Of a stretch of 64,000 nucleotides of DNA, positions 59,706 to 64,000 are shown in pieces. Under the pieces are notes generated by a model. That model saw nothing but the letters and a program-made list of their open reading frames with translations, was not told where the DNA came from and did not search any database. The first letter of the stretch is position 1; each line of letters opens with the position of its first letter. Source of the stretch: Odiellus spinosus (lineage: Eukaryota > Arthropoda > Arachnida > Opiliones > Phalangiidae); contig CAWUCO010000228.1 in NCBI GenBank assembly GCA_963920705.1, positions 674,001 through 738,000 of the forward strand. The letters are read 5' to 3'. The translations under genes were made by a program, and so were the position numbers.

Positions 59706-59707
59706 TA
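59706..59707. repeat. TA target-site duplication, left copy
   Basis: The satellite reads CCCAAG then TA, followed directly by the island. On the far side the sequence resumes with TA then TAGATCG. Removing the island and one TA restores a perfect family B junction, so TA is the duplicated target. Confidence 0.88.
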
Positions 59708-59729
59708 CCCAGCAAACACTAAACATCCC
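59708..59729 (+). repeat. Left terminal inverted repeat
   Basis: The first 12 bases, CCCAGCAAACAC, are the perfect reverse complement of 61,834-61,845. The next ten bases match at eight positions, with mismatches at 59,720 and 59,724. A further 10-bp inverted pair, GAGATATTCC at 59,731-59,740 and GGAATATCTC at 59,790-59,799, lies just inside. Confidence 0.9.
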
Positions 59730-59880
59730 AGAGATATTCCATTCTAGCCCAAACCTCCCTACATAATCCGGTACAGAGTGGATATTACTGGAATATCTCT
59801 GGAATACCCAAAAAATCCATCCTATTCGGCACTTCTAACATCCAAAATGTAATGTACCGGAGATGTCCATTTGATATCCA
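59720..59880. other. Left subterminal repeat zone
   Basis: This non-coding stretch carries small inverted pairs: GAGATATTCC at 59,731-59,740 with GGAATATCTC at 59,790-59,799, and TCCGGTACA at 59,767-59,775 with TGTACCGGA at 59,853-59,861. Additional GGAATA and GATATCC-like words are interspersed. Short frames crossing it on either strand have no gene-like features. Its likely role is transposase binding, inferred from position only. Confidence 0.6.
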
Positions 59881-59924
59881 AAAATCGTTTTGTTTTTTAA
59901 ATTTTTTTAAACGGCCGGGCGCGG

Positions 59925-59966
59925 ATAAATATATTATTATATATTTATATATATATATTATATACA
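59925..59966. repeat. AT-only low-complexity tract
   Basis: About 40 bases of A and T, mainly TA dinucleotides, follow a T-rich run (59,888-59,908) and a short GC-rich patch (59,911-59,924). It is a simple repeat inside the element. From 59,967 to about 60,210 I see no supported feature. Confidence 0.8.
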
Positions 59967-60211
59967 CGTCAAGAAAAAGAATGGCGCTAGTGGGCCATTT
60001 TCTCTCTCTGAAAACTTTCGAAGACGGAATTTTGTTAATAGCTTTTGTCATGTGCTATATTTTAATGAAATTACAATATATATGTAAGGCTGTACTATAT
60101 TTCAATAATTTTCGAATTTTATCCAAAGCCCAATTTCGAAATGCTCGCAGTCATGTTCAGCCCTGGCTCTTAGTTTTCATTTTCTTATCTGGCAACGCTG
60201 TCTCCAGACGC

Positions 60212-60217
60212 TCAGTC
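60212..60217 (+). promoter_or_regulatory. Possible initiator (TCAGTC) for the spliced gene
   Basis: TCAGTC matches the arthropod initiator consensus TCAKTY. If used, transcription would begin near the A at 60,214 and yield a first exon ending at the donor at 60,427. There is no convincing TATA box 30 bp upstream and no clear downstream element, so this is only a weak suggestion. A six-base match is expected often by chance. Confidence 0.2.
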
Positions 60218-60426
60218 TCTCTTAGTCGTCTTCCCGAGCTAGCTACTAGCAGTCTTGATCTTGCTTTTGTAAATGCACGTTTCTTTATTCGACGCCATCT
60301 TTTAAAACGCGTTCTTATTAGATAATTTCTCAAATCGGCTACGGTAACGGTATTAAATTATCGGTTCTTAACGTGTTTGGATCTTCACGTTAAGGTTAAT
60401 TGGAATCCATGAATAAGGAAATTCAG
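60214..60426 (+). other. Possible non-coding first exon
   Basis: The stretch ends AATTCAG followed by GTAAAA, a good donor at 60,427, and the 108-bp intron 60,427-60,534 ends TACTTTTAG. The small frame from the ATG at 60,409 reads six codons to the donor but enters the next exon in a frame that soon stops, so this exon is best treated as untranslated leader. The 5' limit is unknown. Alternatively the element carries only the downstream part of a gene and this donor is fortuitous. Confidence 0.35.
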
Positions 60427-60581
60427 GTAAAACATTTTTTATTATTCATTTTTAATCGCGCTACCTAATTCAAAAGTCATAAATTTTAATTTTTTAGTTT
60501 GAAATTTAAGCTAAAATTAAATTTATACTTTTAGACCTACATAATGCGAAAATATCTTCTAATGCTGACAAAAACAAGAGT

Positions 60582-61286
60582 ATGGTCTCTTCAAGGGAAA
60601 GAGATACATCAAATAAGCCTATTGGTACCACAATTTTATCAAGCTCTCTAAATATCTCACGGAATTTGAATAGTCGTTTAACTCAAAACAATAATTATCT
60701 GACAAAATTGCCTTCGACTACCCAAAGTAAGTAATATTAATTTCATTCTTATATTAAAAATTTTCCACTGAGTTTGAGCTGCATGAGCACCAAATGAAAT
60801 TAAATCTAGAACTTAATATAATGAAATTGTAAATTTAGGTGAAGCTACAAACAAAAATGTAATGGGAACAATTTCCATCAGCGAATGTACGTATTATAGT
60901 TTTAAAATTTAATTTACGTTTGCCAATTGGCTAAAAATTTAATTTTACTTTTTACTCGTTTTAATAGACCGCAATATAATTTGGCAAGAGAATACAGTTG
61001 GAAAGGCCTTTAAGCAACCTAAGACTTATGAAAATAATAATTGGCAAGTTAATAGTAACTTTTAAATTTAATTTCTGTTTCCCAATATTTATAGGCAACT
61101 TTAGATTTTATTTGTTGTTTAATTGCTTTCTTTCTAACAATCAAAACAGAATCTGTCAGAGGCTTGAAGAGCTTTAAAGAATCAACTATAGCTGATATTG
61201 AAAAAAATATCAAGTCCTGGTTCACTCATGCTTCTGATAGAATAAAATCAAAAGAATTGACTGCGGCTAAGAAACAGAAAATATGA
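60582..61286 (+). CDS. Unrecognised spliced gene inside the transposon (join of four coding exons)
   Basis: I do not recognise the product. Coding exons are 60,582-60,726, 60,839-60,886, 60,968-61,054 and 61,150-61,286, giving 138 residues plus a TGA stop. Introns of 112, 81 and 95 bp start GTAAGT, GTACGT and GTAACT and end TTTAG, AATAG and AACAG. Every junction has phase 1, and the same frame stays open throughout. The start ATG has A at -3 and G at +4. The frame is also open upstream of it to the acceptor at 60,535, so the true start could lie in a missing exon. The first 65 residues are rich in Ser, Thr and Asn and look disordered (start MVSSRERDTS). The middle contains WQENTVGKAF. The last 45 are Lys-rich and probably helical, with DIEKNIKSWF, ending KKQKI. 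No transposase motif is present. Exon 4 could instead run on to TAA at 61,061-61,063 if its weak donor is unused. Confidence 0.5.
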
Positions 61287-61364
61287 CGGGCGTCTATATG
61301 ATTTTAAATTTAGGAACAATTTTTTTCTCTCTTAATTAACTTAGTTTTGTAAAAACTTAAGGTT

Positions 61365-61370
61365 ATTAAA
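61365..61370 (+). promoter_or_regulatory. Possible poly(A) signal (ATTAAA)
   Basis: ATTAAA, the commonest variant of AATAAA, lies 79 bp after the TGA at 61,284-61,286. It fits the end of the spliced gene, but the region is AT-rich and such hexamers occur by chance. Confidence 0.35.
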
Positions 61371-61499
61371 ACTATTTAATTGCAATACCAGCCTTATTGG
61401 ACTAAATTTAAAAATTAAGCGGAAGGGCTATGTTTAAAATTGTGTACGTACGTACACAAATTTGAATGTATACCTTTAATTAGCAGCTAGTGCATGATA

Positions 61500-61833
61500 T
61501 ACGAACATCATTCTAAGCATCTCGTGTGAATATCATTTGGCTCTACCCAGAATGTTTCTAGGATGTTCTTAGAATATTTTCAATTACCTTGAACGGATGT
61601 TCATGGAATATTACGTGAATCAAATTAAGACGTTTGGAACATAATGAGTATATCTATGGAATATTCGACGAATCTCTTTAAGGATATTGTTGGAACGTTA
61701 TAGGAATATAGATAACTGTGACATTTGGTTACCCTCAGAACATCCAAGGTTGGACATTCTTGATTATTTGGATATCATGAGGACGTTTCCAATATCCTAC
61801 ATGGATATTTCCTGAATGTCATGGGGATATTTC
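61500..61833. other. Right subterminal repeat zone
   Basis: This gene-free stretch has repeated short words: GGATGTTC at 61,561-61,568 and 61,595-61,602, ATGGAATATT at 61,603-61,612 and 61,656-61,665, and several looser GGATAT or GGAACGTT-like copies up to the terminal repeat. Spacing is roughly 20-55 bp. It is longer than the left zone, so the element is asymmetric. Repeated subterminal motifs usually serve as transposase-binding sites; here that is inference. Confidence 0.6.
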
Positions 61834-61845
61834 GTGTTTGCTGGG
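61824..61845 (-). repeat. Right terminal inverted repeat
   Basis: The last 12 bases, GTGTTTGCTGGG, are the exact reverse complement of the left end. With the preceding ten bases, 20 of 22 positions pair with 59,708-59,729. Confidence 0.9.
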
Positions 61846-61847
61846 TA
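61846..61847. repeat. TA target-site duplication, right copy
   Basis: TA follows the final GGG and precedes TAGATCG of the resumed satellite. It pairs with the TA at 59,706-59,707. Confidence 0.88.
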
Positions 61848-64000
61848 TAGATCGAAAAATTTCCCAAGTATAGATGCAAAAATTTTCCAGGTATAGATCG
61901 AAAAATTTCCCAAGTATAGATCGAAAAATTTCCCAAGTATAGATCGAAAAATTTCCCAAGTATAGATCGAAAATTTCCCAAGTATAGATCTAAAAATCTC
62001 CCAAGAATAGATCGAAAAATTTCCCAAGTATAGATCCAAAAATTTCCCAAGTATAGATACAAAAATATCCCAAGTATAGATCCAAAAATTTCCCAAGTAT
62101 AGATACAAAAATATCCCTAGTATAGATCCAAAAATTTTCCAGGTATAGATCGAAAAATTTCCCAAGTATAGATCCAAAAATTTCCCAAGTAAAGATCCAA
62201 AAATTTCCCAAGTATAGATGCAAAAATTTTCCAGGTATAGATCGAAAAATTTCCCAAGTATAGATCGAAAAATTTCCCAAGTATAGAACGAAAAATTTCC
62301 CAAGTATAGATCGAAAAATTTCCCAAGTATAGATCGAAAAATTTCCCAAGTATAGATCGAAAAATTTCCCAAGTATAGATCGAAAAATTTCCCAAGTATA
62401 GATCGAAAAATTTCCATGGTATAGATCAAAAAATTTCCCAAGTATAGATCCAAAAATTTCCCAAGTATAGATCCAAAAATTTCCCAAGTATAGATCCAAA
62501 AATTTCCCAAGTATAGATCCAAAAATTTCCCAAGTATAGATCCAAAAATTTCCCAAGTATAGATCCAAAAATTTCCCAAGTATAGATCCAAACATTTCCC
62601 AAGTATAGATCCAAAAATTTCCCAAGTATAGATCCAAAAATTTCAAAAGTATAGATCCAAAATTTTCCCAAGTATAGATCCAAAAATTTCCCTAGTATAG
62701 ATCCAAAAATTTCCCAAGTATAGATCCAAAAACTTCCCAAGTATAGATCCCAAAATTCCTCATTTATAGATCCAAAAATTTCCCAAGTATAGATCCAAAA
62801 ATTTCCCAAGTATAGATCCAAAAATTTCAAATGTATAGATCCAAAATTTTCCCAAGTATAGATCCAAAAATTTCCCTAGTATAGATCCAAAAATTTCCCA
62901 AGTATAGATCCAAAAACTTCCCAAGTATAGATCGAAAAATTTCCAGAGTATAGATAGAAAAATTTCCCAAGTATAGATCGAAAAACTTCCCAAGTATAGA
63001 TCCCAAAATTCCCCATTTATAGATCCAAAAATTTCCCAAGTATAGATCCAAAAATTTCCCAAGTATAGATCCAAAAATTTCAAAAGTATAGATCCAAAAT
63101 TTTCCCAAGTATAGATCCAAAAATTTCCCTAGTATAGATCCAAAAATTTCCCAAGTATAGATCCAAAAATTTCCCAAGTATAGATCCCAAAATTCCCCAA
63201 GTATAGATCCAAAAATTTCCCAAGTATAGATCCAAAAATTTCCCAAGTATAAATCGAAAAATTTCCCAAGTATAGATCGAAAAATTTCCAAGTATAGATC
63301 GAAAAATTTCCCAAGTATACATCGAAAAATTTCCCAAGTATAGATCGAAATATTTCCCAAGTATAGATCGAAAAATTTCCCAAGTATAGATCGAAAAATT
63401 TCCCAAGTATAGATCGAAAAATTTCCCAAGTATAGAAGGAAAAATTTCCCAAGTATAGATCGAAAAATTTCCCAAGTATAGATCCAAAAATTTTCCTGGT
63501 ATAGATCCAAAAATATCCCAAGTATAGATCCAAAAATTTTACAGGTATAGATCCAAAAATTTCCCAAGTATAGAGCCAAAAATTTCCCAAGTATAGATCG
63601 AAAAATTACCCAAATATAGATCGAAAAATTTCCCAAGTATAGATCGAAAAATTTCCCAAGTATAGATCGAAAAATTTCCCAAGTATAGATCGAAAAATTT
63701 CCATGGTATAGATCAAAAAATTTCCCAAGTATAGATCCAAAAATTTCCCAAGTATAGATCCAAAAATTTCCCAAGTATAGATCCAAAAATTTCCCAAGTA
63801 TAGATCCAAAAATTTCCCAAGTATAGATCCAAAAATTTCCCAAGTATAGATCCAAAAATTTCCCAAGTATAGATCCAAACATTTCCCAAGTATAGATCCA
63901 AAAATTTCCCAAGTATAGATCCAAAAATTTCAAAAGTATAGATCCAAAATTTTCCCAAGTATAGATCCAAAAATTTCCCTAGTATAGATCCAAAAATTTC
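61846..64000 (+). repeat. Satellite family B, continuation after the insertion
   Basis: About 94 monomers of family B in unchanged orientation run to the end of the window. The same variants occur as left of the island, including GATGCAAAAA-CCAGG, CCATGG, the 22-bp monomer and TTTCAAAAG. The CCATGG variant followed by GATCAAAAAA appears at about 62,415 and 63,702, marking a 1,287-bp repeat (about 56 monomers) cut off by the window end. Some monomers here are more divergent, for example CCCAAAATTCC followed by CATTTATAG near 62,755 and 63,010. No gene is seen. Confidence 0.96.

Follow-up and report, generated by a model that had tools for sequence, protein, structure and literature searches.

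The element located at positions 59708-61845 of the window (i.e., the whole stretch of 64,000 nucleotides of Odiellus spinosus DNA that was analysed) is very probably a non-autonomous, internally deleted member of the animal-type CACTA (En/Spm, TRC) transposons, carrying a decayed second gene that is native to its own family. It has been inserted into a satellite, it belongs to a family flanked by 2-bp target site duplications and dispersed in the genome as near-identical copies, and one relative with the same tips harbors two genes. The window element is a recently amplified deletion derivative, that is, an ordinary object of a kind already known; the part worth following is the second gene, which contains a DUF4806 domain. 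The tracing of the cargo ties this domain of unknown function to the place of the CACTA second gene in this genome.

Structure of the Element and of Its Insertion Site

The element is 2,138 bp long and its tips (CCCAGCAAACAC on the left and GTGTTTGCTGGG on the right) are perfect inverted repeats of 12 bp, matching at 20 of 22 positions when extended. Its ends are organized as follows:

59706..59707, no strand: left copy (TA) of the 2-bp target site duplication
59708..59719, + strand: left terminal inverted repeat, extended to 59729 with 2 mismatches
59720..59934, + strand: left subterminal region, containing repeats of the GAATAT/GGATAT type and sharing 93-100% identity with the corresponding ends of sibling copies
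61357..61833, + strand: right subterminal region with GAATAT/GGATAT-type repeats
61834..61845, + strand: right terminal inverted repeat, extended from 61824 with 2 mismatches
61846..61847, no strand: right copy (TA) of the 2-bp target site duplication

The motifs GAATAT, ATATTC, GGATAT and ATATCC, picked after inspection of the sequence, have four occurrences in the left 227 bp and 11, two of which overlap, in the right 489 bp, whereas none is found in the middle 1,250 bp of the element (59958-61207); although chosen post hoc, they agree with the subterminal repeats typical of CACTA/EnSpm elements. The remainder of the window (1-59707 and 61845-64000) is a satellite with a unit of 23 bp, present in about 2,600 copies on one side and 94 on the other. 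If the two flanks are joined with the loss of one TA, a satellite unit is obtained, and the 30-mer spanning the join is found 255 times in positions 1-59600 of the window; since the removal of the element and of one TA restores the satellite, the insertion must have occurred into a pre-existing satellite. The initial annotation had described an intact-ended element, flanked by TA on both sides, provided with subterminal repeats and nested in satellite, and all these traits are borne out, the empty site being exact. It had also noticed the lack of a transposase signature; accordingly, nine CACTA-type transposases of the same genome gave no match, at E up to 1, to the window element, to 16 siblings or to the tip-sharing L037.

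Among the stop-to-stop frames of the element, the longest (200 codons, approximately 59730-60330, + strand) is located in the left subterminal and leader part, outside the cargo exons, and may be due to chance; it matched none of the sequences with which it was compared.

Copies across the Genome

The search for the element in its own genome (443 Mb, 286 contigs) disclosed 59 matches, 40 of the 42 candidates being scored. Seven copies, including that of the window, are full-length, with zero to five pairwise differences over 2,138 bp; the other six differ from the window copy at one to five positions, and their flanks are different and do not match. In this way, the further copies that the initial annotation had proposed to look for were found, each in a different context. 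The same finding disposes of the idea that a satellite might have expanded around an ancestral gene. The tip sequence itself has 108 exact sites in the genome, versus 10 for a backwards control.

Seven other copies (L017-L023) are 2,567-2,582 bp long and, when aligned with the window copy, differ from it at 47-48 positions, and further forms (L015, L016 and L024) range from 2,216 to 2,394 bp. All of L017-L023 contain a nested insertion (345 bp in L017, positions 983-1327, C12) with 30-bp inverted ends, which lies inside an exon of the accessory gene, is flanked by a CATCAAA repeat and is absent from L015, L016 and L024.

As regards the autonomous relative that had been suggested as a further check, a two-gene element with the same tips (L038, see below) was found, whereas the genome search (40 of 42 candidates scored) revealed none within the subfamily to which the window element belongs. 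L025 and L026 each contain one end, and no frame was recognized as a transposase in them. The right-end relatives L027-L033 have extensive flanking sequence in common, as expected from copies of one insertion within a larger repeat, and yielded no parent element. These large repeats, which are about 92-99% alike and located on several contigs, have in common an old right-end piece of the window family; in L027, a nearby frame resembles, by eye, a reverse transcriptase.

A Two-Gene Relative and the Decay of the Cargo

L038 (C8:6300802-6308548) is 7.7 kb long, has the same 12-bp tips and an AA duplication, and contains an uninterrupted frame of 718 aa (L038:2378-4465). A second gene with its own ATG is located downstream on the same strand and consists of nine exons, chosen by eye at GT-AG borders, that give an uninterrupted protein of 459 aa in which Pfam recognizes DUF4806 (33.5 bits versus a cut-off of 25, E 5.3e-8). 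Apart from the 12-bp tip, no subterminal sequence common to L038 and the window element was detected; since the ends are alike only in the tip, L038 is to be regarded as a relative rather than as a demonstrated helper.

The comparison with L038 leads to the following interpretation of the cargo of the window element:

60000..60426, + strand: possible 5' leader, with an arbitrary start, a donor-like CAG/gtaaaa at its end and a putative role
60535..60726, + strand: putative exon 2, with a single frame open over its whole length
60839..60886, + strand: exon 3, probably corresponding to exon 6 in the accessory gene of L038
60968..61043, + strand: exon 4, in which a deletion has joined the beginning of the L038 exon 7 counterpart to the 3' portion of exon 8
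61150..61286, + strand: exon 5, counterpart of L038 exon 9 (the last one), with 70-74% protein identity

When the whole 459-aa protein was compared with the window element, two stretches were matched, corresponding to exons 4 and 5 (E 1e-16), while the leader and exon 2 have no match to L038. The last exon shares about 74% protein identity with that of L038 (E about 5e-16); the genome search gave 70% for 44 residues. Exon 3 and L038 exon 6 are both 48 nt long, with the same frame offset and the same donor (gtacgtat); at the DNA level they match weakly over 39 bases (E 0.013), and they were not brought together in the MAFFT alignment. The exon 8 portion of exon 4 belongs to the DUF4806 region, and the donor of exon 4 is gcaagt in the window element versus gtaaga in L038; the stretch that this exon lacks is kept in part by L024, pieces of which match two further exons of the L038 accessory gene. 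The Pfam scan of a pieced window frame and of the pieced L024 sequence gave no match at all, including to DUF4806 (PF16064). L034, L035, L036, L039, L041, L042 and L043, all with the same tip (a single one in the fetched stretch in the case of L043), also contain a last exon with weak similarity (46-50%, E about 0.001 to 0.003).

If the splice sites shared with L038 are used, the frame of the window element runs into a TGA at the junction between exons 4 and 5, and exon 5 is out of frame with exons 2-4. Since the frame stops before the last exon, the accessory gene of the window element is, to judge from its sequence, decayed. The multi-exon reading frame described by the initial annotation is thus real by homology as far as its 3' exons are concerned, whereas it is not intact.

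It might be argued that the window-type element still expresses its accessory gene as a short protein or RNA that regulates its helper, by analogy with the shortened products known from some transposons. The seven window-type copies have an open last exon (a TAA is present in the 2.58-kb group and in L015), and an alternative donor (GT at 61048), together with an acceptor before 61095, would leave the frame open from exon 2 to the last exon. However, besides the stop found with the splice sites of L038, the core of DUF4806 is mostly deleted, and the groups of siblings bear differing frameshifts, a stop or the nested insertion, so that no sign of selection on a product can be seen. Such a functional derivative is therefore considered improbable.

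Origin of the Cargo

Pack-TIR elements (Pack-MULE, Pack-CACTA) consist of non-autonomous ends enclosing exon-intron sequence. The window element is organized in the same manner, and the initial annotation had accordingly proposed a Pack-type element, i.e., a non-autonomous transposon mobilising a captured, spliced host gene or gene fragment. The spliced exon structure, the lack of an internal transposase match and the presence of the cargo in several copies are all in agreement with this idea. In order to trace the cargo, as the initial annotation had recommended, its last exon (48 residues) was used as a query on the genome, and 20 matches with E of 0.001 or less were retrieved, all 38 candidates being scored. 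Sixteen of these belong to the element's own copies and siblings (seven window-type copies, seven of the 2.58-kb type, L015 and L016), and the other four are L038, its tip-sharing relative L037, and L057 and L058. The latter are 834-bp pieces with about 97% identity to the right part of L038, that is, truncated relatives of it, in which no tip fitting their position was found within the fetched stretches, even with up to two substitutions allowed. No parent gene of the host emerged either from the last-exon search or from the search with the element DNA (40 of 42 candidates scored).

Since all the last-exon matches are embedded in transposons or in their truncated relatives, the cargo is the family's own second gene, as far as its exons can be traced; this sets the window element apart from Pack-TIR elements. 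Moreover, the gene to which the cargo corresponds is itself part of an element with identical tips, where it follows a transposase-like frame in the same orientation; three of five other transposase loci have a DUF4806 gene in this position too. The capture of a host gene is contradicted for exon 5 and for the part of exon 4 derived from exon 8, and is very unlikely for the element as a whole; since exon 2 has no match in L038, capture could still account for that piece. The other origin that had been suggested, an accessory gene native to an undescribed element family, holds as regards the native origin, whereas the family belongs to the animal CACTA/TRC elements already known and the gene is broken here.

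Target Site Duplications

The existence of target site duplications was checked in the 25 fetched copies having both exact tips (L009-L024 and L034-L042), i.e., 16 copies of the window family and nine from other families with the same tips. The count did not include the window copy (TA), L025, L026 and L043 (one exact tip fetched) and L027-L033 (no exact tip). A 2-bp duplication was found in 24 of the 25 copies, the only exception being L036, versus 4.2 on average and at most 12 when the flanks were shuffled 10,000 times; in the case of L040, whose flanks are palindromic, the duplication may mean nothing. The short (2-3 bp) target duplication of CACTA/EnSpm elements is thus present, as 2 bp, in these 24 copies and in the window copy.

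With the strands merged, the 24 dinucleotides are TA (seven), AA (six), AC (five), AT (three), GA (two) and AG (one). The TA duplication noticed by the initial annotation does exist at the window copy and would fit a TA-specific element (Tc1/mariner/pogo or similar), whereas 17 of the 24 duplicated copies are not TA, so that the TA of the window is no sign of such specificity and this assignment can be dismissed with near certainty. Tc1/mariner, in particular, was rejected on its TA-only insertion, given that TA accounts for just seven of the 24 duplications.

Assignment to the CACTA Superfamily

At least 64 sequences of the genome match the 718-aa protein of L038 (of 159 candidates, 64 were scored), and the protein was aligned with eight relatives, one of which is partial. 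When the nine members of the family were scanned singly, seven of them contained DUF4218 (best E 3.9e-6), which we take to be a mark of CACTA/EnSpm transposases. Transposase_21 (tnp2), described in PMC1636069 as a mark of these transposases, was recognized in one of the nine (E 8.7e-5). The L038 protein itself matched no Pfam family at E up to 10, and the assignment to CACTA therefore rests on relatives that are 32-58% identical to it; the Transposase_21/DUF4218 regions are found through these relatives, the window copy being devoid of a transposase.

The structure model of the 718-aa protein (mean pLDDT 59.7, pTM 0.50) matched seven PDB entries at E up to 0.001, six of them RAG1 (best 1.3e-6) and one Transib (6e-4), with a poor superposition in all seven cases (for the best, RAG1, TM 0.32-0.36 and rmsd above 12); as far as the model can be trusted, this would be consistent with an RNase-H-type transposase. 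A sequence search of the PDB with the transposase alignment yielded no match. After RAG1 and Transib, the model also matches the BAH domains of BAHCC1 and TNRC18 (E 2.4e-3 to 2.5e-2). It might be guessed that this match falls in the beta-rich C-terminal part of the model, which would place a chromatin-reading domain on a CACTA transposase.

DeMarco et al. 2006 (PMC1636069) describe animal CACTA elements with CCC tips, 2-bp duplications and short deleted copies, the Aedes tip being CCCAGTCAAC; the CCC-type tip of the window family is comparable with it. As in these TRC elements (SmTRC1 of Schistosoma, Aedes, Tribolium), CCC tips and 2-bp duplications are accompanied here by a CACTA-type transposase (in the relatives) and by short deleted copies beside full ones. 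Unlike them, the window copy lacks a transposase, and its perfect tip is 12 bp long versus 54 bp in SmTRC1, 27 bp in Tribolium and 10 bp in Aedes, as reported in the same paper. A further difference concerns the second gene, which here contains DUF4806, whereas the second proteins of SmTRC1 are described there as having no detectable relatives. A literature search with the first ten bases of the tip returned no transposon work by title, among the matches listed.

It is known that deleted copies of En/Spm keep their ends and subterminal repeats and are moved in trans. The window element resembles them in its ends and subterminal repeats, and also in the movement that is proposed here. It would have arisen by internal deletion, and its tips and subterminal repeats would be recognized by the transposase; a CACTA transposase encoded elsewhere in the genome would then have moved it in trans, making 2-bp staggered insertions with little sequence preference, one of which would have landed in the 23-bp satellite. 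In addition, the intact DUF4806 (BEN-type) protein may bind the subterminal repeats, playing the role of plant TnpA; to our knowledge, plant TnpA is not known as a DUF4806/BEN protein. The maize En/Spm element also has two products, one transposase-like and one other, which derive from the alternative splicing of one unit according to PMC1636069, whereas in L038 the second gene is provided with a separate ATG, downstream of the transposase frame.

DUF4806 Genes Downstream of Other Transposases

Eight other transposase loci were fetched, and the downstream region was inspected in five of them (L052-L056). A DUF4806 gene follows the transposase in L038 and in three of these five loci, with weaker signs in the other two. 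In the three cases, the domain scores above the cut-off on the same strand (30.8 bits in L053, 25.4 in L055 and 30.6 in L056), the scanned pieces of the five loci being exon frames joined by eye with X. L052 has a similar-looking frame without a Pfam match, and L054 only an N-terminal-type frame followed by repeated frames. When the L038 protein was compared with the five downstream stretches by tblastn (E up to 1), only L055 (7e-4) and L056 (5e-4) were matched. The DUF4806 profile found no match over the genome; since the controls were silent too and the domain is split by exons, this negative result carries no weight.

According to PMC11075544, DUF4806 is a subtype of BEN, and PMC7642931 lists it among the expanded domains of Hydra, beside zf-BED and HTH_Tnp types. 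No such link between DUF4806 and CACTA elements was found in the consulted portions of the open PMC literature on DUF4806/BEN. The placement of the gene suggests that DUF4806 may be an end-binding partner of the transposase. The odds are even that animal CACTA are two-gene elements, in which a RAG1/Transib-like transposase is accompanied by a DUF4806 (BEN-type) protein that binds the subterminal repeats and takes the part of plant TnpA. If so, many lineage-expanded DUF4806 "genes" of animal genomes would be transposon genes, which might help to explain the expanded DUF4806 families of animals.

Other Elements with the Same Tips

Two further kinds of elements sharing these tips were observed. 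L034, L035, L036, L039, L041 and L042 represent another family, 3-6 kb long, with long internal tandem repeats whose periods, judged from offsets, are near 70 and 33 bp. L040 (C13:17166957-17172933) is a 4.6-kb element in which the first 60 bases of both ends are identical and which is 62% self-complementary overall (ungapped comparison); its immediate flanks, AACCATAT and ATATGGTT, are inverted copies of each other, pointing to either a palindromic arrangement or an assembly artefact.
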